A stretch of DNA of 28,176 bases from a virus. The stretch's first letter is position 1; the number at the start of each line of letters is the position of its first letter. Below the pieces are notes generated by a model that saw nothing but the letters and a program-made list of their open reading frames with translations, made no database searches and was not told the DNA's origin. The stretch is taken from positions 1-28,176 of IMG/VR virus record IMGVR_UViG_3300008012_000132, one strand, 5' to 3'. The position numbers were made by a program, and so were the translations under genes. Below, piece by piece: positions 4,850-28,176 of the stretch.

Positions 4850-7201
4850 TTATGCTCCTTCTAAAGCTGTAATACGAGCCTCTAGCTCTTGGATTGTTTT
4901 TACTAATAGTGGTACAAGTTTAGACTGATCTATGCCTTGCATTACGGCAACGCCATCTGCATCGACTTCGTTGTGTGTTCCATGTACTGCTTCTGGTACA
5001 ACTGCCTGTGCTTCGTGGGCTAAGAAACCATCGACTGTAGTATCTGGATCAGCAATAAAGTTAAACCTTGCTGGCTTGAGTTGCTTTAACCTAGTTGTAG
5101 CATCCCATGTGTAACTTACGTTTTCTTTTAGGCGGTGATCTGAGGAGGTGTTATAAGAAACAGATGAACTACCTGTTGTTACTGTTCCAACAACTCCTCC
5201 ATTAGTAGTATGTTCAAAGGCTAATGCTCTGTTTGAACTACCGACTTCTCCTATAAAATTACCATGAGCAGTAAGGTTGCCATTAGCAAACCCTATTCTT
5301 CCGTTGTAAATATTTACTCTAGGATTACCATCCCCATCAGACAGCACGATGTGGTTGCTTGAGGTGCGGATGTCTAGGCCGCCTTGGTTGCCGTTGTAGC
5401 GTCCAATTATTGTGTTTTTAGCACCTGATGTGACATTATACCCTGCGGAACGACCAACAAAAGTATTTTTGTCTGATGTCGTATTATATCCAGAAACATT
5501 ACCAATAAAAGTATTTGAGGCCGCAGTTGCGCATGAATATCCTGCTTCAATACCAAACGAAGCATTATTAACGCCTGTGGTGTTGGATTGCAAAGCACCA
5601 AGACCAAAAGCTGAGTTACTTTCCCCAGTAGTATTGTTATATAATGCCAACCTTCCCACAGCAGTATTACTTCCACCTGTAGTATTACTATAAAGCGACT
5701 GATAACCCACAGCAGTGTTGTTACTTGCGGTGGTGTTGGAGTTAAGAGCCTTATAGCCAAAACCTGAGTTATTAGCCCCTGTAGTATTTGCAAACAATGC
5801 CCCATGTCCAAAAGCACTATTGTCTGAAGCTGTGGTATTACTGTATAAAGCCGCATAACCTACAGCAGTATTATCATCACCTGTACTATTAGTATAAATA
5901 GCGTTTGCTCCCACAGACACATTTCTATTACCAGTAGTATTACTATATCCAGCCCGATAACCAGTAGCCGTGTTGTAGTCTGCGGTGGTGTTTGATTGCA
6001 GTGCTTGTCTGCCTAACGCTGTGTTATATGCACCTGTTGTGTTATAGTATAAAGAATTATTACCAACCGCTACGTTTTCTTGACCAGTAGTATTAGTATA
6101 TAAGGTGTTTCTTCCTAGTGCAGTATTGGTACTACCAGTTGTATTGGAGTATAAGGCTTGAAAGCCAAAAGCGTTATTCTCATTACCTGTAGTATTAGTA
6201 TAAAAAGCACCCTTACCAACGGATGTATTTGAATGACCAGTCGTATTACTATAACCCGATAGTCCACCAACAAAGGTATTGTGTGTGCCTGTTGTTACTG
6301 CATTACCTGCGGAAAAACCTACTGCTACGTTATAGTTGTCAGTAGCTGTGGTGAAGTTTTGTGTACTTAAAGCCCCGTATCCAAGAGCAACTGCTCTGCT
6401 ACCTAATGTATCAACGGCTAAAGAGTCATAACCTAGTGCTACATTATAATCAGCATCAGTAAGTGCATCACCAGCTAGTCCACCAATGAGGGTGTTTCTT
6501 ACGCCTGTTGTGACTTGCCCACCTGCGCCATAACCCACTGCTGTGTTGTAAGTGTCTGTAGCTGATGTAAAGTTTTGACTAGATAAAACTGATCGTCCGA
6601 TTGCAACAGATTTACTTCCTAAAGTATCAGAGGTTAATGCGTTGTATCCAAGTACAGTATTGTCACCACCAGTAGTAAGAGCATCTCCTGCAATGCCACC
6701 GATAAGGGTATTTCGAGTGCCTGTGGTTATTGCAGTACCAGCATTTGCACCTATAGCCGTATTGTAAGTACCAGACGTTAGGCTATCCAACGCAGTATCA
6801 CCCAATGCCACGTTGTTTGTACCATTGGGATAGTTTCCGTCTAGCTTGATCGTGCCGCCGTCCGCGGAGAAGTTACCTTGAACAGTAACCGCGCCTGTAA
6901 ACGTACCGCCCGATGTCGGAACCGCGTTAGCTATAGAACTAATCTCATACGCTACAATCTCCACAATGTCAGAAGCCGCGGCTCCCGATCCAAGGACCAC
7001 GGACGTTTTAGTTGTGGCCGCGTAATCTGATACGGGAACGAGAAGTACCCCGTTTAAAAATACATCGACATATGTTGCGTCTGCGTAGGCGAGTGTTAGC
7101 CCGTTACTGTCAGCGCCGCTAAAGGACGTCTGACCATTTGTGGCAGAATAGATGAAGCGGTTTCGTACACCTACTCCCGGTTGTCGTCCTTGATATGCCA
7201 T
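4850..7201 (-). CDS. Tail fibre with head-type repeats and S74 autochaperone domain
   Basis: A 783-residue fibre. Residues 1-100 form an N-terminal attachment domain (FIYSATNGQTSFSGADSNG, DVFLNGVLLVP). Residues 130-163 start a series of N-x-(A/V)-x-G turns. Two 72-residue modules follow (164-235 and 236-307), then 17 copies of a 17-residue repeat (308-595) of the form NTAVGYQSLYSNTTGGS. A beta segment (about 609-680) leads to a C-terminal peptidase S74 / intramolecular chaperone domain from about residue 686, with the SDHRLK motif (Ser687, Lys692) and LAHEAQAVVPEAV. The protein ends in a trimerising coiled coil (QELEARITALEG). In this family the C-terminal domain folds the trimer and then cuts itself off next to the conserved serine. 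Confidence 0.88.
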   Translation of the reverse strand: MAYQGRQPGVGVRNRFIYSATNGQTSFSGADSNGLTLAYADATYVDVFLNGVLLVPVSDYAATTKTSVVLGSGAAASDIVEIVAYEISSIANAVPTSGGTFTGAVTVQGNFSADGGTIKLDGNYPNGTNNVALGDTALDSLTSGTYNTAIGANAGTAITTGTRNTLIGGIAGDALTTGGDNTVLGYNALTSDTLGSKSVAIGRSVLSSQNFTSATDTYNTAVGYGAGGQVTTGVRNTLIGGLAGDALTDADYNVALGYDSLAVDTLGSRAVALGYGALSTQNFTTATDNYNVAVGFSAGNAVTTGTHNTFVGGLSGYSNTTGHSNTSVGKGAFYTNTTGNENNAFGFQALYSNTTGSTNTALGRNTLYTNTTGQENVAVGNNSLYYNTTGAYNTALGRQALQSNTTADYNTATGYRAGYSNTTGNRNVSVGANAIYTNSTGDDNTAVGYAALYSNTTASDNSAFGHGALFANTTGANNSGFGYKALNSNTTASNNTAVGYQSLYSNTTGGSNTAVGRLALYNNTTGESNSAFGLGALQSNTTGVNNASFGIEAGYSCATAASNTFIGNVSGYNTTSDKNTFVGRSAGYNVTSGAKNTIIGRYNGNQGGLDIRTSSNHIVLSDGDGNPRVNIYNGRIGFANGNLTAHGNFIGEVGSSNRALAFEHTTNGGVVGTVTTGSSSVSYNTSSDHRLKENVSYTWDATTRLKQLKPARFNFIADPDTTVDGFLAHEAQAVVPEAVHGTHNEVDADGVAVMQGIDQSKLVPLLVKTIQELEARITALEGA
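5417..6280 (-). repeat. 17 tandem 17-residue (51-base) fibre repeats
   Basis: Within the S74 fibre, residues 308-595 consist of 17 in-frame copies of a 17-residue unit with consensus N-(T/S)-(A/S)-(V/F)-G-x3-L-(Y/Q)-(S/T)-N-T-T-(G/A)-x2. One copy is 16 residues. The last three copies lose the NTT motif (CATA, NTTSDK, NVTSG). These resemble YadA/Hep-Hag head repeats that build left-handed parallel beta rolls in trimeric adhesins. Diverged copies argue that the array is selected as protein, not a recent DNA expansion. Confidence 0.85.
6281..6712 (-). repeat. Two tandem 72-residue modules in the fibre
   Basis: Fibre residues 164-235 and 236-307 are two copies, each exactly 72 residues (216 bases). 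Both run from N-T-L-I-G-G-(I/L)-A-G-D-A-L-T through DT-L-G-S, VA(I/L)G and QNFT(S/T)ATD to AG and TTG. A third copy lies in the neighbouring fibre (bases 7868-8083). Confidence 0.85.
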
Positions 7202-7204
7202 TCT

Positions 7205-8833
7205 TTAAGCCTCCAGTGCTGTAATACGTGCTTCTAGTGCATCGTTCTTTGATTCTAGTGCATCGTTCTTTGCTGATAATTCTTGTACGGCTTTGATAAG
7301 CATGGGCATGACGTTACCTAAACCCACAACTTGAAACCCACCTACACCTTCTTTCCAGATATTATGTCTTCCAGTTAAAGAATATTTATCTATTACTGTT
7401 TTTACTTCTTGAGCAATAAGACCATAATGAATACCGCCATCGCCCCTGCAAGGTTCAGTAGAGTTTTCTTCATAATATCTGCCCAAACTTGGGTCTATAT
7501 CTTTTTTTTCTTTCCACTCATAAGTAACTGGTCTTAGCTCATCTATGAAATCTAATCCTACAGATAGTGGATTAATATTATGTTTTAATCTTTCATCGGA
7601 TGTAGCACTCCAACTAGTGTCAGAGCCATCAAGATTTATTTGAACATCAGTGTCACCACGACCAATTGTAAAAGTATTAGTGCCGCTTCCTGATGCCGCT
7701 CTTCCAATTACATATTCTGTATTAACAGTTGTAGAAGAATTGCTTGAGTTTGAACCAACAATAATGTTTGAATCACCAGTTGTTGCATTCATAGAATTGT
7801 AACCAACAACTACGTTTTCAATCCCAGTAGTTATATTATCACCTGCAATGCCACCAACAATGGTATTTTTAACCCCAGTTGTGATGTCATTACCTGCATG
7901 AAACCCAATAGCAATATTGTGAGTATCCGTAGCTGATGTAAAGTTTTGTGCGTTTAATGCTCCACCACCTATCGCTACTGATTTACTACCTCTTGTGTCA
8001 CTACCTAAAGATTCAACACCAATCGCAATATTAAAGTCTGCATCGGTTAAAGCATCACCTGCTAGTCCACCAATCAAGACATTCTCTATGCCTGTTGTAA
8101 TCTGTCTACCTGCCTTTGCTCCAACTGCTGTGTTGTAAATATTGCCCGAAGAATTGACTTGATTTTCTAAAGCACTGCGACCAACGGCAACGTTATTTTG
8201 CCCACCAGTTTCCGTTGATAAAGATAGGTATCCTACTGCTACGTTGTCAGCACCTGTAGTATTAGCATACCCAGCTTGATGCCCAACAGCAGTGTTGTTA
8301 CTTGCGGTGGTGTTGTTTTCTAATGCTGACTTACCTAATGCTACATTGTAAGAACCTGTCGTAATTGCATCGCCAGCTAAAGCACCTATCGCCACATTTT
8401 GAGTACCCGAAGTTAGAGCATATAAAGAGTTTCTACCAACTGCTGTATTGCTTGCCCCTGTTACTGTTGCGCTACCTGCTGAAAAACCACCAATAAAAGT
8501 GTTAGAAACACCTGTAGTGTTAGAAATACCTGCGCTGTGTCCTACTGCTACATTGTAGCCGTCTGAACCTAAGTTTTGTTGTAGTAAAGCACGATACCCT
8601 ACAGCAGTTGCGCCTTTTGTAGTATCTTCTGCTTTAAGTGCCTCAAAGCCAATAGCTACATTGTCATCCCCCGTCGTAATAGCAGTACCTGCTTCGTCAC
8701 CCACAACCACGTTGTAGTTACCGCCAGATGCTATTGAGTTACCTGCGTTAACACCTGCTCTATAGTTTGACGTACCAAGAGTTTGTGTAAATGGCTGTTT
8801 AATTATATTGGCTGTATCTCTTGATTTAGTCAT
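7205..8833 (-). CDS. Second tail fibre with head-type repeats and a different S74 domain
   Basis: A 542-residue fibre with a very short N-terminus (about 38 residues; MTKSRDTANIIKQPFTQTLG), then about 330 residues of N-x-A-V-G head repeats, including one copy of the 72-residue module (residues 251-322). A linker with FTIGRGDTDVQINLDG precedes the S74 chaperone/protease domain, whose motif is TSDERLK (Ser412, Lys417), followed by LRPVTYEWKEK and HYGLIAQEVKTV. The end is a coiled coil with a duplicated KNDALE heptad. The SDERLK/IAQE pattern is the classic S74 signature. Without a large N-terminal domain it may bind the virion through the neighbouring fibre. Its start lies 13 bases after the upstream gene's stop. 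Confidence 0.88.
   Translation of the reverse strand: MTKSRDTANIIKQPFTQTLGTSNYRAGVNAGNSIASGGNYNVVVGDEAGTAITTGDDNVAIGFEALKAEDTTKGATAVGYRALLQQNLGSDGYNVAVGHSAGISNTTGVSNTFIGGFSAGSATVTGASNTAVGRNSLYALTSGTQNVAIGALAGDAITTGSYNVALGKSALENNTTASNNTAVGHQAGYANTTGADNVAVGYLSLSTETGGQNNVAVGRSALENQVNSSGNIYNTAVGAKAGRQITTGIENVLIGGLAGDALTDADFNIAIGVESLGSDTRGSKSVAIGGGALNAQNFTSATDTHNIAIGFHAGNDITTGVKNTIVGGIAGDNITTGIENVVVGYNSMNATTGDSNIIVGSNSSNSSTTVNTEYVIGRAASGSGTNTFTIGRGDTDVQINLDGSDTSWSATSDERLKHNINPLSVGLDFIDELRPVTYEWKEKKDIDPSLGRYYEENSTEPCRGDGGIHYGLIAQEVKTVIDKYSLTGRHNIWKEGVGGFQVVGLGNVMPMLIKAVQELSAKNDALESKNDALEARITALEA
7232..7272 (-). repeat. 21-base direct repeat encoding a duplicated coiled-coil heptad
   Basis: Bases 7232-7251 and 7253-7272 are the same 20-base sequence, spaced with a 21-base period (seven codons). 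In the fibre this gives KNDALES then KNDALEA, an exact heptad duplication. The identity at DNA level suggests a recent slip that lengthened the C-terminal coiled coil by one heptad. Confidence 0.85.
7736..8719 (-). repeat. Head-type repeat region of the second fibre
   Basis: Fibre residues 39-366 are built of degenerate N-x-A-V-G-x(3)-(A/L) turns with NTTG or TTG spacers. They include one 72-residue module (bases 7868-8083) that matches the modules at 6281-6712; by hand count it shares 47 of 72 residues with the closer of the two. The turns are more diverged than in the first fibre. Confidence 0.75.
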
Positions 8834-14567: not shown

Positions 14568-15056
14568 TTAACCCATCTTTGTGTTTTTTACGCCACGTCC
14601 TGCCATTACACAGCCGCCGTTCATAAATCTTTCGCGCTCTTTACGTCTAGAATTCTTAATTGTTTGCGGAGAAGCATTTGTTCTTGTATCATATTTTCTA
14701 GACCCTTCCTTAACCGGTCTACCTCTGCTATCTTTTTCACCGTCTTCAGTCATATATACCTTGCTATCAATAGCTTTTAAGTCATCAATCATATGCTTTA
14801 GTTTTTTTTCTTTTAACAATAAAGACTTGCGACTCTCTTGACCTGTAGCTTTTCTTTTAGCTGCATTAAATCCGGCTCGAACTCCACTTGTTAACATACC
14901 TACAGGGCTTGCTGTGTTTTGATCTATTTTACTGCCCAAAAACGTTTCTAACTTTGGACTAGGATCAAAGCCTACTGTACCTTTTAATTCTTTTTGTATT
15001 CTTTTTAAAAGTGTACGAGACTTGAAGTTTTGACCTTCTCGTTTTCTATCAGGCAT
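14568..15056 (-). CDS. Basic helical protein with GGCVMAGRG C-terminal motif
   Basis: A 162-residue lysine-rich protein with long helical stretches (SLLLKEKKLKHMIDDLKAID near residues 80-100). No recognised domain. The end, NGGCVMAGRGVKNTKMG, shares the nine residues GGCVMAGRG with the C-terminus of the adjacent upstream gene. Strong positive charge could mean DNA or RNA contact inside the head. It overlaps that gene by one base (TAATG-like). Confidence 0.65.
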   Translation of the reverse strand: MPDRKREGQNFKSRTLLKRIQKELKGTVGFDPSPKLETFLGSKIDQNTASPVGMLTSGVRAGFNAAKRKATGQESRKSLLLKEKKLKHMIDDLKAIDSKVYMTEDGEKDSRGRPVKEGSRKYDTRTNASPQTIKNSRRKERERFMNGGCVMAGRGVKNTKMG

Positions 15057-15244
15057 TACATCGCTCCTTTATATTTGCCACCGCGCCCGGCCATTACACA
15101 GCCTCCGCCCATATAGCCTTTTTTAACTTTACCGCCGCTCATGTAGCCCTTCTTGACCATGCCGCCATTTTTCTTTTTTATTACACCACGGCCAATAAGA
15201 ACGTCTTTCTTAGTGATTTTACCGTCGCCACTTAAATCTTTCAT
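15056..15244 (-). CDS. Small EF-hand-like, glycine/lysine-rich protein
   Basis: A 62-residue protein. Residues 3-14 read DLSGDGKITKKD, an EF-hand or dockerin-like calcium loop (acidic or hydroxyl groups at positions 1, 3, 5, 9 and 12). This is followed by a helix, then by two KKGYM repeats and GGGCVMAGRGGKYKGAM. The last motif is repeated in the next gene. Function unknown; tiny size and dense lysines suggest a virion accessory protein. The gap to the upstream gene is 19 bases. Confidence 0.65.
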   Translation of the reverse strand: MKDLSGDGKITKKDVLIGRGVIKKKNGGMVKKGYMSGGKVKKGYMGGGCVMAGRGGKYKGAM

Positions 15245-20426: not shown

Positions 20427-20915
20427 CTAAACTTGTTTAATATCATCAGGTTCAAGAATTGTAGCAATCACTTCGTCATCATTAATGATACGAACTTCTC
20501 CACCGTCAATCTTAAATCGTGATCCAGAATATCGTCCAATACATACCCATTGACCTTCTTTGCACCAGGCATCTGAGCCTTTGCCAAATTTATTTGGGTC
20601 TTTGTATGCTAATGGTCCGACCTTTAGAACATACGCAACAACCGTAGCTACGGCCTCACGAGCTCTAATTTCGTCCGGAATATGTAGACCACCCTGTGTT
20701 TTAACGGCACCTTGATAAGGCATCACTAATACACGCCATCCAGTAGGCTGCGGTAATCTTTCCAAAAGGGGTTTATCTAATAGAGAAGGGTCTAATACCT
20801 TCTCGGTTGCACTAACGTATGCGCTATTCACAGCGGATGAGTCGGCTTTAGCCTCCTCCCGTTCCTTGTTCATTTTCTGCGCGACGTGGTCAGGTACTAA
20901 TAAAGTCTTCGTCAT
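20427..20915 (-). CDS. GroES-like co-chaperonin
   Basis: A 162-residue protein. Residues about 54-155 match the Cpn10/GroES fold: LPQPTGWRVLVMPYQG, then a mobile-loop-like GAVKTQGGLHIP (about 69-80), REAVATVVAYVLKVGPLAY, EGQWVCIGRYSGSRFKIDGG and VRIINDDEVIATI. The GroES 'IVL' tripeptide of the mobile loop is LHI here. A 50-residue N-terminal extension (coiled-coil-like, with MNKEREEAKA) is unusual for a co-chaperonin. Phage co-chaperonins such as T4 gp31 help host GroEL fold the capsid protein; its place before scaffold and capsid genes fits. The start overlaps the upstream gene by 26 bases; a second ATG at 20873 would avoid the overlap. Confidence 0.85.
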   Translation of the reverse strand: MTKTLLVPDHVAQKMNKEREEAKADSSAVNSAYVSATEKVLDPSLLDKPLLERLPQPTGWRVLVMPYQGAVKTQGGLHIPDEIRAREAVATVVAYVLKVGPLAYKDPNKFGKGSDAWCKEGQWVCIGRYSGSRFKIDGGEVRIINDDEVIATILEPDDIKQV

Positions 20916-21685: not shown

Positions 21686-22195
21686 CTATATCATTTCTAA
21701 GGCTTGGTGTAATGTTTCTTTGTTACGTCTTGTCCATCCACGCCCAAACGTTTCAAACGTCTTTAAGCTCTTATAGAAGTCCTGACGGACGCCGTAAACA
21801 TAATTTATTATTTCAGCGGGATCTTTCTCCATAATAAGACCTAGCGTCTTTGGTCCTATGGCTCCGTCTTGCGTAGCCCCAACTGCGCGTTGCACAGCTT
21901 TTGCAGGTCTACCCGATCCGGAATTCACGGCCCAGTCCAGACAGGCCCAGTCTAAACCAGAAGGAAGTGAATCTCCTTTTACTCGATCCCAGTAGTTCTT
22001 CTTGTATATCGGAGCTACATCTTCGGGCGTTAAGTCGCGCATTTCCTGTTCAGTAGACTCTCGTCCAATCCATTCATCGTACACACGTTTGGTGACACCG
22101 AGATTAGTCATACCCCCTGGATCCTCGGGATGATTTACAAATCCTCCTTCGTGGGCAAGTAGCATATCTAAACACTTATTGAAGTTCTCTTTCAT
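21686..22195 (-). CDS. Endolysin, GH108-type lysozyme
   Basis: A 169-residue muralytic enzyme. The N-terminal glycoside hydrolase 108 signature is LLAHEGGFVNHPEDPGGMTN, with Glu16 as the likely catalytic residue, then LGVTKRVYDEW. The C-terminal peptidoglycan-binding domain (PG_binding_3 type) has WACLDWAVNSGSGRPAKAVQ and GATQDGAIGPKTLGLIMEKD. It degrades cell-wall peptidoglycan at the end of infection. Length is typical. There is no signal peptide, so it depends on the holin next to it (ATGA overlap at 22192-22195). Confidence 0.92.
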   Translation of the reverse strand: MKENFNKCLDMLLAHEGGFVNHPEDPGGMTNLGVTKRVYDEWIGRESTEQEMRDLTPEDVAPIYKKNYWDRVKGDSLPSGLDWACLDWAVNSGSGRPAKAVQRAVGATQDGAIGPKTLGLIMEKDPAEIINYVYGVRQDFYKSLKTFETFGRGWTRRNKETLHQALEMI

Positions 22196-22551
22196 TTTTT
22201 ATTCCCAAAATACTTACTAACACCACGCATACCAATACTCGCAGACACTATTCCACCTAGAGAATACTGATACCAACCAGGCATATCCGCTAATGCAGCG
22301 AATCCTGCTTGTACTATTTGATTACCCCAGTCCCCACAGAACGCCAAAATAAGGGGAATACTGAACAAAAGTGTGATCCATTCGTCTTTCCAACTATTCT
22401 CTGTGGCTTTCATTGCGGCCAGGTCCCAATCAAGTTCTCCAGTGGCAATCTTCATTTTTGTTTGAGCTTCAGCCTGCTTAACCGCAGTCTTGCCCTCGAT
22501 CATTGTACCGGCTAAGTCAGCGACCTTACCTAGTAATCCTAGTCCCATCAT
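22192..22551 (-). CDS. Holin (GTA_holin_3TM-like)
   Basis: A 119-residue membrane protein. A hydrophobic N-terminal segment (about residues 2-18) is followed by a charged helix with KQAEAQTKMKIATGELDWDL. A strong membrane helix (about 58-72, ITLLFSIPLILAFCG) comes next. The rest is a weaker segment (about 80-106, with IGMRGVSK). The 'SWKDEW' before the middle helix and the general layout match the three-TM holin family first described for gene transfer agents. The start has ATGATG in frame, giving a possible two-start product. Directly upstream of the lysozyme, as in most lysis cassettes. Confidence 0.8.
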   Translation of the reverse strand: MMGLGLLGKVADLAGTMIEGKTAVKQAEAQTKMKIATGELDWDLAAMKATENSWKDEWITLLFSIPLILAFCGDWGNQIVQAGFAALADMPGWYQYSLGGIVSASIGMRGVSKYFGNKK

Positions 22552-22871
22552 TAGTTATTTTCCTTTCCTTTTGTGTAGGCTTCCTTGCCGTAGAAGGCAG
22601 CAACAATAGCCGCAACAGAAACAAAATACACACCAGCAATAGAAGCTAGCGACTTCATGGCCTCATCAAGATTAGCCACATTACAAATAATTATTGCGAA
22701 AGGGTACAGCAACATGCCGAATAATGCAAACCATGCCATCTTGCGTTGTGCATCTCTTTGAGCATCGTCATCTGCCATCTTCAGCCTTCTATCTTCTAAG
22801 GCCAGTCTATCCCACTCGGATTGATCTATTGATCCATTACCATCTACATCTGCTTTTTCAAACTCTGTCAT
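22551..22871 (-). CDS. EF-hand protein with two membrane helices (lysis-region)
   Basis: A 106-residue protein. Residues 8-19 (DVDGNGSIDQSE) form a complete EF-hand calcium loop: Asp8, Asp10, Asn12, Ser14, Asp16 and Glu19. A charged amphipathic helix follows (RLALEDRRLKMADDDAQRDA). Two membrane helices lie at about 46-66 (AWFALFGMLLYPFAIIICNV) and 76-94 (ASIAGVYFVSVAAIVAAFYG). It is one base away from the holin start (TAATG). A calcium-responsive partner of the holin is a reasonable guess, since the cassette is lysis-related. No functional evidence beyond position and motif. Confidence 0.75.
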   Translation of the reverse strand: MTEFEKADVDGNGSIDQSEWDRLALEDRRLKMADDDAQRDAQRKMAWFALFGMLLYPFAIIICNVANLDEAMKSLASIAGVYFVSVAAIVAAFYGKEAYTKGKENN

Positions 22872-22880
22872 GTGCTTCTC

Positions 22881-23390
22881 CTAGTCTGCGAGAGGGTTGT
22901 CTAAAGCCCTCTGGATCTTATCCATTAGTTTTTCCTCGAGCTCTTTCATAGCGCCACTTTGTGAAACCCTAACACGTTCACGTTGATTTTCAAAGCGAAC
23001 TTCTGCGTTATCTATCATAGTACGAACCTTGTCCTCTGATTCACGTACCATATCTTCTACACGATCCGTTTGCTTTTCAATGCTAAGAATGTCAGAACGT
23101 AATCCATTTTTGATGTCCCGGCTGTATTCTACAGACTCTTCAACCTTTTCAGATATGCCCGTTACCTTCGCATCCATCACATCCATTGCTTGTTGGTATT
23201 CCCCTAAGTCAAGTCCTGCAACTTCCTCGATCTTTTGGTACATGACGAAACCACCGTACAAGCCACCTACGACCGTAGACAAAAACGCCAGTATAGCCAT
23301 GATTGAACCAAACGACATCTTCATGCCACCAGTCTTAAACTCACGATCTGCAAGTCCATCAATGTTATTTGCTATCTTGGTAGTATCCAT
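22881..23390 (-). CDS. Membrane-anchored coiled-coil protein (possible inner spanin)
   Basis: A 169-residue protein. A short cytoplasmic start is followed by one membrane helix at about 28-50 (GSIMAILAFLSTVVGGLYGG), then by a long heptad-rich coiled coil (about 55-150: MDAKVTGISEKVEESVEYSR, KQTDRVEDMVRESEDKVRTM). N-in topology with a large periplasmic coiled coil is that of an inner spanin or of a phage TM-coiled-coil lysis protein. The upstream gene makes an exported coiled-coil protein, a plausible partner. No lipobox is visible in either, so the spanin label stays tentative. Confidence 0.65.
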   Translation of the reverse strand: MDTTKIANNIDGLADREFKTGGMKMSFGSIMAILAFLSTVVGGLYGGFVMYQKIEEVAGLDLGEYQQAMDVMDAKVTGISEKVEESVEYSRDIKNGLRSDILSIEKQTDRVEDMVRESEDKVRTMIDNAEVRFENQRERVRVSQSGAMKELEEKLMDKIQRALDNPLAD

Positions 23391-23788
23391 TAGTTTTCAA
23401 ACTCCATCTCTCCACCGGCGTTCTGTAGGTTCTTTAGTGCTTCTAGCTCATCGCGTAGTTTTTGTATCTCTAACCTACGTTGCGCTAGCTCTATTTGATA
23501 AAGGTCGTCACAGTTAATACGAGCCTTGGGCTTGTCTAATGGAATAACTATCCTTGCGTATACACCTATGTCTTTGCCACGACTGCTAGTATCTAAACCT
23601 GATAGCACACCTGTTACGCCATACTCTAAGTTTACGCCTCCACCGACAGCGTTACTGCACCGTGTACTACCCGTTGAAAACGAATCCGATTGGTAGTTCA
23701 TTGGCGGGCTTGGCAAAGCAAGCGAAAGAGAGCTGTTGTCGGCCACAACAGAACTTGATAAAACACAAAAAGCTAACGCTAATCTCAT
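23390..23788 (-). CDS. Exported protein with C-terminal coiled coil
   Basis: A 132-residue protein. A signal peptide (MRLALAFCVLSSSVVA|DNSS, cleavage by eye) opens the sequence. A beta-like middle follows with SNAVGGGVNLEYGVTGVLSG and GVYARIVIPL, then an amphipathic helix DLYQIELAQRRLEIQKLRDE. Two cysteines in the mature part suggest a disulfide. I chose the ATG at 23788: it overlaps the upstream stop by 4 bases (ATGA) and has GGAG about 8-11 bases upstream, whereas an ATG at 23815 would give a basic leader. It might act with the downstream membrane coiled-coil protein at the envelope. Confidence 0.75.
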   Translation of the reverse strand: MRLALAFCVLSSSVVADNSSLSLALPSPPMNYQSDSFSTGSTRCSNAVGGGVNLEYGVTGVLSGLDTSSRGKDIGVYARIVIPLDKPKARINCDDLYQIELAQRRLEIQKLRDELEALKNLQNAGGEMEFEN

Positions 23789-24174
23789 GCAGGTTCTCCG
23801 TCTAGCCTTGAGCATATTGTAGAAGAAACAAGTGTCCTGGATATATTAGTTTTCCTGACCTTTGAGGTTGTACATAGAAAGACTGCTTCGGGTAAATCTC
23901 TCTTCCTTATGTAGACATCAAAAGCTTTATATTCTTTATAATCAACCTTCATAATTCTATACGGCGTAGAAAAAGGTATAGGCATCCAGTTTAAATCAAA
24001 TAAATCGACCTGATAGTAATTTATTTCTTCCCTAGAGTTAAACAAAGACATTTCTACTTTAACTACGTTTTTGACGTGGGACATCTTTACTTCTGGATAA
24101 GCAGGCGTCATTTCGTGCGCGAACGCACTAGAAGCAGCTAACATACCTATTATGAGTAACTTACTTAGCGACAC
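23785..24174 (-). CDS. Exported Ig-like protein, possibly chaperone-like
   Basis: With a GTG start at 24174 the protein begins MSLSKLLIIGMLAASSAFA|HEM, a good signal peptide. The mature 110 residues are beta-rich: VVKVEMSLFNSREEINYYQV, DLFDLNWMPIPFST, YKAFDVYIRKRDLPEAVFLC, ending VSSTICSRLDGEPA. The N-x-(S/R)-x(3)-Y-x-V pattern, then D, then a C after a V-x-V strand, looks like one PapD-type immunoglobulin domain. Two mature cysteines could pair. An ATG at 24240 would overlap the upstream gene by 80 bases and lack a signal peptide at the start; I prefer GTG. Fold resemblance is tentative. Confidence 0.6.
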   Translation of the reverse strand: MSLSKLLIIGMLAASSAFAHEMTPAYPEVKMSHVKNVVKVEMSLFNSREEINYYQVDLFDLNWMPIPFSTPYRIMKVDYKEYKAFDVYIRKRDLPEAVFLCTTSKVRKTNISRTLVSSTICSRLDGEPA

Positions 24175-24649
24175 AACTGGCCTGCACAACCGCAGTGTAG
24201 TTGCCTCCGGGAAACGGTTTAGCTGAACCGTACACAGCACTAGAAGCAGTAGAGAACCATGTTGACCCCGCGAGCGTAAGATTAAATATCGAAGTGTTAT
24301 CTACGACTACTTTAGCATCGTTATAAGCGGACATTCCTGACACAGACGTTTGTGTGACCGTCGTACTACCTGTCCACGCTAATGTGTCTGTTAATGTAGG
24401 GGAAGAACTAAACGATGTTGGATGCGTTATGTTAGCTGTGTAGGAATTCGCAATGGATACATCGTATCTAATTACTGGCAATACGCCCCCGTCAGAAGGA
24501 GTAGTGCTTAACTTACTAGCAATCGGGTTTCCGTATACACCGCTTTTAGTTGTTTGGATAACACATTTGGCTTCTACACTCCCTGTAATATTTACAGTTG
24601 CGAAAGCTGGTAGTGCAACGAGTGAAAGTGTTGCTATTAGATACTTCAT
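24161..24649 (-). CDS. Exported beta-rich protein, pilin-like
   Basis: A 162-residue protein with signal peptide MKYLIATLSLVALPAFA|TVN. The mature part begins NITGSVEAKCVIQTTKSGV, has many T/S-rich strands and ends in GNYTAVVQASCVAK. Cys29 and Cys159 could pair as in pilins and spore-coat U-like proteins, where an early cysteine and a C-terminal strand frame an Ig-like domain. Start: the ATG at 24661 overlaps the stop of the upstream gene, but GAGG lies six bases before the ATG at 24649, so the latter is likelier. It neighbours a chaperone-like gene. Assignment to a pilin-like fold is by pattern only. Confidence 0.7.
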   Translation of the reverse strand: MKYLIATLSLVALPAFATVNITGSVEAKCVIQTTKSGVYGNPIASKLSTTPSDGGVLPVIRYDVSIANSYTANITHPTSFSSSPTLTDTLAWTGSTTVTQTSVSGMSAYNDAKVVVDNTSIFNLTLAGSTWFSTASSAVYGSAKPFPGGNYTAVVQASCVAK

Positions 24650-24657
24650 ATTAAACC

Positions 24658-25530
24658 TCATTTGTTATACTGCATATCAACCATCTTTTCATGCAGAATC
24701 TGTTGTGCCAAATTATTGCGAAGGGCTTTCTTGTTATCAGGTATCTCTGAATCAGCAAGACCAGGGGCATCAGCATACGAACCACCGTTAATAGATGCAT
24801 TGTAATACATATTAAGATTAGTTTGTTGATTGATAGCCATAATAATCTGATCTTGTCCTTGCGTTTTAAATAGGGTCAACGCATTGGCAGATGCCGTCAG
24901 CCCCATCTCAATCCTAGTTTCTTCTTCCTCTTCCTCCTCAGAAAGTATCAACTCTCCGTCTTCATCATACTGAAAGTCTGTGTCGGCGTCTATAGCGTCT
25001 ACAACAGCGTCATCTTCCAGTGCATCATAGACTTCAATCACAGGAAGAACAGGTATGGGCTTTACATATCCTGGGCAGTTAGGATTGGACTGCGGTTCAA
25101 AGCACTCGTCGATCCTATAGTTATATATAACCACAGCATCTTTGACCGAACCTTTCCCTTCAATGTCAATTGAACCGTCACCCCATTTGGTAGCCGGAAT
25201 GTTAGAAAGGGGAAAGGATTTAACGATGGTGTTGCCGGGAACTCCCGACCAGTCGTCGGTTTCTCGAAAGATATAGCCGTCTCCGCTAGCGTTCTTATTT
25301 CCAACGTGGACTTTCATGTCGTCTTCTGGGTTTTTGACCGTGGTGTATCTGTATAAAAGACCGTTTATATCTATGCCTGGGATATCAGGCAGGACGGAAC
25401 TCATCCCCCAGCTTAGTGCTGTGGATGCGGCGTTCCCTGTTGCCCCATAACTATAGGGATCACAAGAAGAGTAAGAAGGCCAAAGTGCTAATAATAACAC
25501 TAAGACCTGTTTTTGTTTCAACGTTTTCAT
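24658..25530 (-). CDS. Exported acidic protein of unknown function
   Basis: A 290-residue protein with a signal peptide (MKTLKQKQVLVLLLALWPSY, then SSCDP). Cys23 is at the cleavage site but the context (YSSC) is not a canonical lipobox. The mature chain has YGATGNAASTALSWGMSSVL, GYIFRETDDWSGVPGN and DECFEPQSNPNCPGYVKPIP. A very acidic stretch follows (ALEDDAVVDAIDADTDFQYD, then EEEEEEET), then helices to the end (LAQQILHEKMVDMQYNK). The start overlaps the upstream gene by 71 bases; the signal peptide supports this start. No known domain. Confidence 0.7.
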   Translation of the reverse strand: MKTLKQKQVLVLLLALWPSYSSCDPYSYGATGNAASTALSWGMSSVLPDIPGIDINGLLYRYTTVKNPEDDMKVHVGNKNASGDGYIFRETDDWSGVPGNTIVKSFPLSNIPATKWGDGSIDIEGKGSVKDAVVIYNYRIDECFEPQSNPNCPGYVKPIPVLPVIEVYDALEDDAVVDAIDADTDFQYDEDGELILSEEEEEEETRIEMGLTASANALTLFKTQGQDQIIMAINQQTNLNMYYNASINGGSYADAPGLADSEIPDNKKALRNNLAQQILHEKMVDMQYNK

Positions 25531-26014
25531 TGAACATCTTTCTCATAGGATTGTTCTGATCTCTTTGTATTTCTTCTTTGACCGCTTCCATTTCCCATGC
25601 CAGTCTAGCTTTATCGCCTACCAACCCATCCTTGGGGCAGGGCGTCCCCGCGTTAAGCATGGCTTCAAACACTCTTTCGTCCTGACACATTACGGATACA
25701 GCAGCAACTTTCATGCCCATATCGTACATAGTCTTGGCGTTCTTGAGCTTCTCACAGTTCATATCTCGTACAGTTCTACCCGCTGAAATACCAAGTATCT
25801 GTGTCTGCACCGCCCCCGCGACACCTACAGTACATAGGTCAGAGTTGCTTGCGCTAATCTGCGGAGAAATCGCAGAAGGCGGCGGACTGTTGATGGTGGT
25901 ATCCATCGAACCGTCAGAAGTTATAGTGCTGTTTGTATCAGTTCTGATTGTATCGTCGGCGGATACAACCCCGCCGATCATAATTAGTATAGCCGCTAAA
26001 AGACCGCGGGTCAT
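25460..26014 (-). CDS. Exported cysteine-containing protein with C-terminal membrane helix
   Basis: A 184-residue protein. A signal peptide (MTRGLLAAILIMIGGVVSA|DD) starts it. A T/S/P-rich linker precedes a conserved helical core: ILGISAGRTVRDMNCEKLKN, AKTMYDMGMKVAAVSVMCQD, RVFEAMLNAGTPCPKDG. The C-terminal helix (SVIISTLAFLLFL) may be a membrane anchor. Four cysteines in the mature part suggest two disulfides. The core 'RTVRDxNCExxK--KT-YDxGxKVAAVSxxCQDxRVFxAMxxAGTPCP' is one I remember from hypothetical proteins in phages of many hosts; it has no assigned role. It overlaps the portal by 4 bases. Confidence 0.8.
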   Translation of the reverse strand: MTRGLLAAILIMIGGVVSADDTIRTDTNSTITSDGSMDTTINSPPPSAISPQISASNSDLCTVGVAGAVQTQILGISAGRTVRDMNCEKLKNAKTMYDMGMKVAAVSVMCQDERVFEAMLNAGTPCPKDGLVGDKARLAWEMEAVKEEIQRDQNNPMRKMFNENVETKTGLSVIISTLAFLLFL

Positions 26015-28176
26015 CTTCTTTCCATAGCCTGACGTTGTACGTCAATGCGTTCCCTGTTTACCTCACTGCGATCATCAGCGATCTGCTCTTGAAGTTCTAG
26101 CCTAGCGGAATCAGTAGTAGCTTGTTGTTCTAGCTTCATCTGGTCAAGCTGTAGTTTAGCTTGCTCCATCTGTGCTTTCTGCGAAGCTTCCATCTCTTTG
26201 ATTGCTAGTTCCTGCATACGGATAGTTACGAGCGGATCTTGTTCTGCGCCGCCTTCACCTTTGTATGTCAGTAGAGGCATAACCTCTTGTAGCAACTCTG
26301 ATTCAACCTGTGAAACTCGAGCCTCCACTTGATCTGGGGGCATTTGAGACTGTTGCATCTGCTGTTGCAGTTGAGCAATCTGTGTCTGCGCCATCTCAGG
26401 AAGCAACGCTCCTGCTTGAACTAGGTTTGTAATCTGAGCAATCTGTTGTTGTAGCTCTTGCATCTGCGCTTGTTGCATCTGCTGCATCTCCATTTGAACC
26501 ATAACTCTGGCTTTCATACTGATGTGTTGGAACACATGACTGAAGATTGCCGCCAGAACTGCCGGTGTTTGTTGTAGTATATCAAGTTCGAGCATAGCCA
26601 AGTGACTCTGAATATGCGCGTCGTGATCCTGTTGAGGGAACGCTTGTGGTGTTTTACCACCAATCATAGCCGCATTCTCCGTAGCAGGGTCTTGAGGCAT
26701 AGGTTCTGGTGCCGGTGGCAGAAGCTCGTCTATGTTTTGCACCTCTAATGCTTGATACATTCTTCGATACGCCGCATGCAAATCATGCATCTGCGGGTTA
26801 GACTGCGCCAGTTGGAGCTGTGTTTGCGCGAGTGTAACACGTTGCGACATTGAGAAGATGTTGGGGTCTGAGACTGGGAGGACGTCTACCCGAGCATCAA
26901 AGTCTTCAACCTTAACCTGCGCCTGCGCTCCCGCTACTTGATAGGGGTACATAGGAGGTAGGTTTTCAGAGAAGATACGCGCCAGTAAACGGAATTCCGT
27001 CTTCTGAGCGTAGTGCAATCGTTTATGAATCGCGGACATAACTTTCATCCCGCGTTCCAACATAGCTACTGTAGTTCCAACAGGAGTTTCCTGACCCATG
27101 TCCGAGATCTGTTGATCAGCTAATGCAATGAACCTACGTCCGTCATTTACCAAGCCACCTAGTAATTGAGCAAGTGTGCCTGATGGTTCTTTGTAGGGTA
27201 AAGGAACGATAGCGTCTCTAATGCTTCCTCCTGGGGCGTCAATGTCTCTCCACTCTCCAGGCTGTAACGGCTCATCTGCGTTGCGTACACGCACTCCACG
27301 GGCTTTAAAACCTGCTGGGAGGTTAGCGAGTGTTCCTGCATCGATAAGCTGACGTAGGAGGCTCGTTGCCGCTCTGCCTAAACCACCAATCATGTGGATT
27401 AAACCAAAGCCGTAGAACCCAAGACCAGGCATAAACTTGTAATGAACAAAGTACTGGCGCTTACGCTTGAATATATCTTCCATCTCGTAATTACGACGGA
27501 TAGATAGGATCGAACCAGAAGAATCGTCCAGTGTTACGATGTAAGGTAACTTGATTCCAGTAGGTTCTTGAGTCTCTGGATCCATGTCCTCGAACCCTTC
27601 GAGGTCTAAATCAACGTGCATCTCTAGTATATTGAGGACATCATCGCTGTAGTTCTTAGATAATCCCTCTAATTCGTTTACCTTCTGGCGTACTTGATCC
27701 TCTTCTACATCTTCCGAAGCAGACAGATCAACGTCACGGTACATCCCCGCATACTGTAATTTTACAACTTCGTTTAAATCCATGCGTAGAACGTGGGTTA
27801 CACGGCTAGCTGTGGCTAAATCAGAAGCAGAGTAAGAAACAACGAGATCCTGTGCAGGAATAAACTTCGCAACAGCGCGTTGTTTCGTTGGATCGAAGTA
27901 AACTTTCTTAAATGTAGAACCTGACAGCGGCAAATAGAACAACATCTGATCCATATCTGGATCGTATTCTTCCATAATCTCCGTAATCTGGTAGTTCATG
28001 AAGTCTTTTACACGCTTGGCTTGCTCTTCTCGTGCGCGGTCTTTAAGTCCAAGGACCGCGGTGCGTACTGGTCCGCCCGATGGTAAGAGTTCCTTGTATG
28101 CCTGTGCTTGGAACTGGGTTACGCTTTCACTAATCATAGGATGCGTAATGCCAGAAGCCCCTTCAAATGGAGTAGA
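26011..28176 (-). CDS. Portal protein (5' end cut by window edge)
   Basis: The frame is open to base 28176. The residues upstream of the first ATG (28137) read STPFEGASGITHP in frame and fit the rest, so the true start is outside the window. The visible part begins with VTQFQAQAYKELLPSGG and has IPAQDLVVSYSASDLATASR and YKFMPGLGFYGFGLIHMIGG. PVGTTVAMLERGMKVMSAIH follows at the core of the portal fold. The C-terminal 200 residues are an M/Q-rich helical barrel (LQQQIAQITNLVQAG and onward), as in P22 gp1-type portals. Twelve copies form the ring through which DNA enters and leaves the head. Confidence 0.88.
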   Translation of the reverse strand, partial: STPFEGASGITHPMISESVTQFQAQAYKELLPSGGPVRTAVLGLKDRAREEQAKRVKDFMNYQITEIMEEYDPDMDQMLFYLPLSGSTFKKVYFDPTKQRAVAKFIPAQDLVVSYSASDLATASRVTHVLRMDLNEVVKLQYAGMYRDVDLSASEDVEEDQVRQKVNELEGLSKNYSDDVLNILEMHVDLDLEGFEDMDPETQEPTGIKLPYIVTLDDSSGSILSIRRNYEMEDIFKRKRQYFVHYKFMPGLGFYGFGLIHMIGGLGRAATSLLRQLIDAGTLANLPAGFKARGVRVRNADEPLQPGEWRDIDAPGGSIRDAIVPLPYKEPSGTLAQLLGGLVNDGRRFIALADQQISDMGQETPVGTTVAMLERGMKVMSAIHKRLHYAQKTEFRLLARIFSENLPPMYPYQVAGAQAQVKVEDFDARVDVLPVSDPNIFSMSQRVTLAQTQLQLAQSNPQMHDLHAAYRRMYQALEVQNIDELLPPAPEPMPQDPATENAAMIGGKTPQAFPQQDHDAHIQSHLAMLELDILQQTPAVLAAIFSHVFQHISMKARVMVQMEMQQMQQAQMQELQQQIAQITNLVQAGALLPEMAQTQIAQLQQQMQQSQMPPDQVEARVSQVESELLQEVMPLLTYKGEGGAEQDPLVTIRMQELAIKEMEASQKAQMEQAKLQLDQMKLEQQATTDSARLELQEQIADDRSEVNRERIDVQRQAMERR

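Follow-up and report, generated by a model that had tools for sequence, protein, structure and literature searches.

A phage family of small two-helix membrane proteins with a conserved calcium-type loop, mostly encoded in the vicinity of lysis genes

A virus genome fragment of 28,176 nucleotides (IMG/VR record IMGVR_UViG_3300008012_000132, analyzed over its entire length; hereinafter the window) includes, next to an endolysin cassette, a gene for a small protein (hereinafter the EF protein) in which a calcium-type loop is followed by two transmembrane (TM) segments. The question raised by this locus is whether such a protein functions in lysis and, if so, whether the loop contributes to that function. 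The timing of holin action sets the moment at which a phage kills its host and, to our knowledge, the trigger of this timing is still open. If a holin-type protein did carry an invariant calcium loop connected to the first TM segment, triggering would be tied to the entry of ions, and the EF family gives a concrete candidate for phages in which a holin has not been recognized.

The open reading frame, including its length, stands as described in the first-pass annotation and is located on the minus strand, which that annotation did not specify (Table 1). The ribosome-binding site is separated from the ATG by 6 bases, and the record contains one match to the EF protein. The gene had been described as lying one base from a holin gene; instead, its stop codon and the start codon of the next gene share one base, in the form TAATG. 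The designation of this downstream neighbor as a holin can be kept in part: the position and the TM content fit, but the PHROG match, phrog_2524, carries the label 'unknown function', and the putative assignment, based on position and TM content, is worded here as 'holin-like'. The two proteins encoded upstream may be the spanin pair of this lineage; their families were counted 58 and 51 times, respectively, in 78 loci of the window branch, the first of them immediately preceding the EF gene in 82 of all 433 loci, and no spanin profile matched either protein at E 1 or better. Further along the window, a portal protein is encoded at 26011-28137.

Table 1. Coordinates of the EF gene, its neighbors and a second EF-like loop in the window
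Feature	Position	Strand	Basis
EF-loop/two-TM protein, 106 aa	22551..22871	-	ORF calling
Calcium-type 12-residue loop DVDGNGSIDQSE, residues 8-19	22815..22850	-	Strict pattern; family conservation
Predicted single helix, residues 17-65 (EF exit helix, charged linker and TM1)	22677..22823	-	AlphaFold model
TM2, residues ~79-100, followed by Lys-rich C tail	22572..22637	-	Model helix 79-105
AGGAG ribosome-binding site	22878..22882	-	Sequence
Holin-like membrane protein, 119 aa, phrog_2524	22192..22551	-	PHROG match; putative holin role from position
GH108 (glycoside hydrolase family 108) endolysin	21686..22195	-	PF05838 E 3.3e-30; phrog_315 endolysin E 3.4e-49
Protein with one N-terminal TM and coiled coil	22881..23390	-	Possible inner-membrane spanin analogue
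Protein with signal-peptide-like N terminus and C-terminal coiled coil (by eye)	23390..23815	-	Possible partner of the 22881..23390 protein
Second EF-like loop DLSGDGKITKKD, opening a Lys/Gly-rich 62-aa protein	protein 15056-15244, loop 15203-15238	-	Pattern

Conservation of the calcium-type loop

The claim that the EF protein carries a full calcium loop is borne out, DVDGNGSIDQSE being complete and fitting the strict pattern. Across its six reading frames, the window contains a single instance of this pattern, compared to 0.0155 hits on average in shuffled window proteomes, and a strict loop was contained in 20 of 100,000 shuffles of the EF protein itself. Altogether, 433 loci were examined; the loop statistics exclude L138 and L277, both of which are cut before the loop by the contig end, and sequences are counted as distinct if they differ from the loop onwards, with the window protein included among the resulting 261. 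The acidic residues, the absence of which from homologs would have spoken against the original proposal, are retained: 260 of the 261 distinct sequences fit the strict pattern, and the remaining one, L279, has an undetermined residue (X) at the first loop position. The signature of the EF superfamily (oxygen ligands at positions 1, 3, 5 and 12, Gly at position 6 and a hydrophobic residue at position 8) is likewise present in 260 of the 261. Position 12 is Glu and position 6 is Gly in all 261 sequences, position 3 is Asn or Asp, and position 5 is Asp, Asn or Ser, whereas positions 2, 7, 10 and 11 each accommodate 10 or 11 different residues. Judging from this sequence comparison, the predicted metal-ligand residues are held and the rest of the loop drifts. 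Glu at position 12 of an EF loop is calcium-type, and Asp in its place would favor magnesium.

The searches were seeded with short peptides, some of which overlap the loop, and the counts were therefore repeated on loci with an exact seed outside it. Seeding does not explain the conservation of the loop because 409 of the 410 loci seeded in this way keep it, the exception again being the sequence with the X residue, L279. On these sequence statistics, the loop is not a chance occurrence.

The EF protein shares with EF-hands (Pfam EF-hand_5 and EF-hand_1; calmodulin) the complete 12-residue loop and the exit helix. EF-hand_5 matches 26 of 28 family members at E of 0.1 or better, and the family profile, when compared to the PDB, matches calmodulins (best E 6.5e-6) across the loop and the exit helix. 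Unlike EF-hands, however, the window protein stays below the Pfam cut-offs (EF-hand_5 E 1.2e-4, 21.8 bits, under the curated 25.9 bits), the loop is single and fused to TM segments, and the entering helix is very short in the structural model, with about 5 residues at pLDDT 64, next to a clear exit helix. The loop is preceded by at most 8 residues in 239 of the 421 loci with an uncut start and by 9-46 residues in the remainder. Because the entering helix is so short, the EF protein is not a clear helix-loop-helix, and its loop is unpaired. A match to lanmodulin (E 0.048; 13.7 bits vs. a cut-off of 135) was set aside.

The EF family is large and hitherto unnamed. At least 595 relatives were confirmed with the window protein as the query and at least 591 with the protein of phage HTVC008M, along with 325 for DC31, 204 for CRP-9, 52 for CRP-810 and 48 for CRP-345, and relatives of different queries may overlap; up to 80 loci per query were kept, and each branch is named after the query against which its loci score best. 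The cultured members are Roseobacter phages CRP-207, CRP-345, CRP-810 and CRP-9, Pelagibacter phage HTVC008M, four Melnitz records (Methylophilales) and Limnohabitans phage DC31, with CRP-1 as a possible further member known from one match alone; the hosts accordingly belong to the Roseobacter group, Pelagibacter, Methylophilales and freshwater Limnohabitans. The cultured records found annotate the EF gene as 'hypothetical protein'. In a scan of bacterial genomes with a single peptide pattern, 5 loci were detected, on contigs of two metagenome-assembled genomes. Identity between branches is 26-37%, with the loop kept; the CRP-9 member, only 26% identical to that of CRP-810, still has it. At the level of profile alignment, the marine and DC31 branches are one family (106 aligned columns, hhalign probability 98.9, E 2e-17). 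Among the PHROGs, phrog_27150 ('unknown function') matches the CRP-9 member with E 5.2e-11 and, more weakly, those of HTVC008M (2.4e-4) and DC31 (0.0032); the window protein matches none at E 0.1 or better.

Predicted topology and genomic context of the EF family

The two TM segments that had been described downstream of the loop are supported both by family-wide hydropathy, which predicts exactly two in 264 of the 269 complete distinct proteins (edge-cut and duplicate sequences excluded), and by structural modeling. The AlphaFold model, built on 28 sequences (mean pLDDT 80, pTM 0.42), consists of a 5-residue helix, the loop, a helix comprising residues 17-65, a short helix (69-77) and a helix at 79-105. 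Helix 17-65 is predicted to be unbroken, such that the EF exit helix would run straight into TM1, and the DC31 branch is modeled with a comparable arrangement, albeit at low confidence (pLDDT 65). A fold search recovered just one match below E 0.001 among viral structures (A0A516M8G9, E 9.9e-6), and the best match in the PDB has E 3.7. The mean number of Lys and Arg residues is 2.72 in the 15 residues before TM1, which are also acid-rich (mean Asp plus Glu 3.56), 0.78 between the TM segments and 2.94 in the C tail (n=264). Given this bias, the positive-inside rule together with hydropathy predicts an N-in/C-in topology with both ends inside and the loop in the cytoplasm, rather than facing outward to the periplasm as considered in the first-pass annotation.

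Class II holins (e.g., lambdoid S21) have two TM segments and an N-in/C-in topology. The EF protein is similarly small, with two predicted TM segments, both termini predicted to be cytoplasmic and a charged C tail, and its gene is found near endolysin genes in five of the six branches. It differs from these holins in having a cytoplasmic N domain of ~45 residues with the calcium-type loop and in that known holin families gave no convincing sequence match; among the 28 members, there are weak matches of one to Phage_holin_3_6 (E 0.076) and of two to MscS_TM (best E 0.009). In its layout and genomic setting, the EF protein thus resembles class II holins, but it is no demonstrated member of a holin family.

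Membership of the EF family in lysis cassettes is well supported. Neighboring genes were clustered by BLAST, and the cluster representatives were labeled by PHROG matches. Of the 341 loci outside the HTVC008M branch, 279 encode an endolysin within three genes of the EF gene, namely 63/78 in the window branch, 25/45 in CRP-810, 43/56 in CRP-345, 68/81 in CRP-9 and 80/81 in DC31. Either an endolysin or a PHROG-annotated holin family is present in 300 of the 341 loci, and in 317 once the phrog_2524 type and weakly labeled spanins are added. As a yardstick, the six genes closest to the endolysin make up ~5% of the 130 annotated features of DC31. Fewer than three downstream genes were available at 72 of the 433 loci, 47 of these in the HTVC008M branch. 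In a non-redundant set of 44 rows picked at 80% identity from 418 usable ones, a lysis context was found in 33, and 43 of the 433 loci, that of the cultured phage CRP-207 included, have neither a lysis nor a tail context. The CRP-207 gene product gp73 (L082 3292-3873), deposited as 'putative lysozyme', has no endolysin PHROG match and clusters with the coiled-coil TM protein, and this label may be wrong.

Among the first 267 loci, the next gene downstream encodes the PHROG 'holin' (phrog_3427) in 52 cases and the phrog_2524 type in 65; the genes overlap by 4 bases in 53 of these 117 loci and by 1 base in 33. Compared with each other, the two holin-like families reach an hhalign probability of 33 over 24 columns, which does not establish homology. 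At an hhalign probability of 9, the comparison of the EF family with the phrog_2524 type likewise does not establish homology, nor an origin of the EF protein by duplication of this neighbor. Among the 176 loci with an endolysin and without either holin-like family, the EF gene is the sole one within three genes to encode two or more TM segments in 130 (DC31 75/80, CRP-9 46/68, window 5/5, CRP-345 4/17, CRP-810 0/6); six loci of the CRP-810 branch have another multi-TM gene, and one or two TM segments are likewise predicted for the spanin2-like protein of cassettes of the CRP-345 and CRP-9 types. The spanin labels are weak, with PHROG E of 1e-4 to 2e-3 for most representatives and 52.7 bits vs. 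a cut-off of 80 for NCBIfam spanin2. In DC31, the gene order is EF protein, Rz-like protein, endolysin, and of five small annotated genes with at least two TM segments (95 scanned), only that of the EF protein lies in the lysis region. CRP-9 has four such genes (51 scanned), the two beside the endolysin encoding the EF protein and the spanin2-like protein.

A possible calcium-linked role in lysis and the alternatives

The reading that we prefer, and consider equally likely to hold or to fail, is that the EF protein acts in lysis as a small holin-type protein of the inner membrane, or as a partner of a holin, with a cytosolic calcium switch. Lineages lacking another multi-TM gene in the cassette probably use it as the holin; in those with a second holin-like gene downstream, such as that of the window, it is probably a co-holin or antiholin, and there it need not be the pore. 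Free calcium is low inside an intact bacterium and higher outside, and EF loops tend to pair. Loop conservation and synteny are observed, and topology and helix continuity are predicted; the scheme that we infer comprises pore formation or membrane permeabilization, calcium occupancy, pairing between protomers, and gating with its direction. Each protomer would contribute one unpaired cytoplasmic EF loop, and metal binding would be mechanically coupled to the membrane part because the exit helix is predicted to continue into TM1. In the intact cell, the loop would be empty and, given the calcium gradient, a loop of modest affinity would fill only after a leak or depolarization. Membrane lesions or the loss of the membrane potential would then admit calcium and the loops would fill; filled loops would pair between neighboring protomers, and assembly would thereby be favored, driven or locked, so that lysis is completed. 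Such calcium-driven assembly would sharpen lysis.

The calcium-linked holin-like protein proposed in the first-pass annotation is a fair hypothesis because the acidic residues are kept and the gene adjoins lysis genes in five of the six branches; the part of that proposal that finds no support is the sensing of calcium in the surrounding seawater, for which the millimolar marine concentration had been invoked. Since the loop is predicted to be cytoplasmic, it would be blind to seawater calcium before the membrane leaks, and since the freshwater phage DC31 carries a relative, millimolar marine calcium is no condition shared by the family. For both reasons, external sensing is not our first choice.

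Among the alternatives, a constitutive metal staple, in which a calcium or magnesium ion in the loop of a lysis-cassette protein would cap the long helix and keep its cytoplasmic end in shape without any gating, appears rather unlikely. A structural site would also explain why it is the ligands and the turn glycine that do not vary, and a lone, unpaired loop preceded by so short an entering helix hardly resembles a sensor that acts cooperatively; nevertheless, the site is kept across branches as divergent as those described above, Glu at position 12 throughout favors calcium, and calcium is scarce in the cytoplasm. We regard as unlikely an antiholin role, in which the EF protein would delay the action of the holin-like neighbor until calcium, or the loss of the membrane potential, releases the antiholin at the moment of triggering. 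The location of the EF gene directly upstream of a holin-like gene of either family in 117 of 267 loci, with overlap in most of these, fits such a role, as does the TM layout, which is similar to that of the neighbor, but the gene is also kept in the 130 endolysin loci where no holin-like family or other gene with at least two TM segments is nearby and there is nothing obvious to inhibit.

The preferred assignment to lysis has to be weighed against the HTVC008M branch, in which a lysis gene occurs within three genes in none of the 92 loci and tail genes are nearby in 73. In HTVC008M and Melnitz-3, the EF gene is located between gp51 and the tape measure position, and this placement among tail genes counts against the lysis reading. 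A tail, baseplate or entry-related membrane protein, for which the proximity to lysis genes would be incidental, could account for the arrangement but is quite improbable: an endolysin lies within three genes in most loci of the other five branches (see above), and no annotated gene was found between gp26/gp51 and the following large gene in any of three other T4-like phages with this block (Synechococcus phages S-SM1 and ACG-2014d and Pseudomonas phage pf16), although a T4-type tail or hub component would be present wherever the gp26-gp51-tape measure block is. Because these three phages lack an annotated gene there, the EF gene of HTVC008M and Melnitz is an added gene and no core tail part. 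In a tree of the 44 non-redundant rows, in which 16 of 41 inner branches are unsupported, the T4-type members group with members of neither context, inside a larger clade that also holds the window group. The case for a holin in HTVC008M and Melnitz is nonetheless weakened by the distance from the endolysins: those annotated in HTVC008M are ~125 kb from the EF gene in record coordinates (~19 kb if the map is closed), and the GH108 and cell-wall-hydrolase genes of Melnitz-3 are 17-21 kb away.

Two small two-TM genes are annotated in HTVC008M, gp021 (the EF protein) and gp167, and five were found in Melnitz-3, one of them two genes after the GH108 gene; the EF protein (67% identical) is the only such protein found in both, in a scan of ATG-initiated ORFs of 45-200 aa matched by eye to the annotation, which genes with other starts could escape. 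The Melnitz-3 gene two genes past GH108 (L440 38719-38982; 87 aa) is another possible holin. In the main text of the Melnitz paper, no word starts with 'holin', and a passage there suggests that the curli pore CsgG(F) might act like a pinholin (PMC9004378). That suggestion concerns the same role, the timing of lysis in Melnitz-like phages, but involves a pore of the outer-membrane type (PMC9004378), whereas the EF protein is predicted to reside in the inner membrane and has kin in lysis cassettes; it is a simpler rival candidate to the curli pore. The broader conjecture, that the EF protein is a calcium-locked holin, with the first leak leading to all-or-nothing assembly of the lesion and a sharp lysis time, and, in place of the curli pore, also fills the vacant holin role in Melnitz-like and pelagimyophage T4-type phages, is offered tentatively and appears rather unlikely.

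No EF-hand holin appears in the titles and abstract openings among the literature matches listed, subscription journals and preprints being outside this scope. EF-hand mentions in passages of PMC5795418 and PMC5889276 are not tied to a holin, and those in a table of PMC7432712 do not concern the holin of that paper; a passage of PMC12346957 places an 'EF hand domain protein' next to a 'holin/anti-holin'. In Acinetobacter phage Abp1, a 185-aa 'EF hand domain protein' (L528 2572-3129) is deposited next to a holin. This apparent precedent was rejected: the protein matches Glyco_hydro_19 (E 1.3e-5, just above the cut-off), lacks a TM segment, and is matched neither by a Pfam EF-hand model at E 1 nor by the EF family profile. 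By these signs, it is a GH19-type endolysin that lacks the loop and is unrelated to the EF family, and its label looks wrong.

A second EF-like loop and other genes of the window

The first-pass annotation also pointed to a second EF-hand-like loop, DLSGDGKITKKD. The pattern is present, but in a different, Lys/Gly-rich protein, and the loop ends in Asp and has a variable Gly at position 6 (replaced in 2 of 6 distinct loops among 80 close relatives, these being the ones kept of 250 confirmed viral relatives); for these two reasons, it appears to be a weaker calcium candidate. A related opening, DLTGDGEVTKAD, starts gp44 of Pelagibacter phage HTVC027P. A joint action of the two loop proteins was considered and dropped, the second being a different protein and evidence for joint action not having been found.

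Several other genes of the window, all on the minus strand, merit mention. By eye, the N termini of three consecutive proteins at 24161-26014 look like signal peptides, and Pfam gave no match to these proteins at E 0.01. A GroES-like phage co-chaperonin (Cpn10, E 3.7e-8, above the cut-off) is encoded at 20427-20915, with the lysis genes on one side and the capsid gene on the other. Two large proteins encoded next to each other at 4850-8833 are rich in repeats of the N-T-x-x-G type (by eye) and have one Peptidase_S74 (endosialidase chaperone) domain each, close to the C terminus; they look like paired tail fibers.
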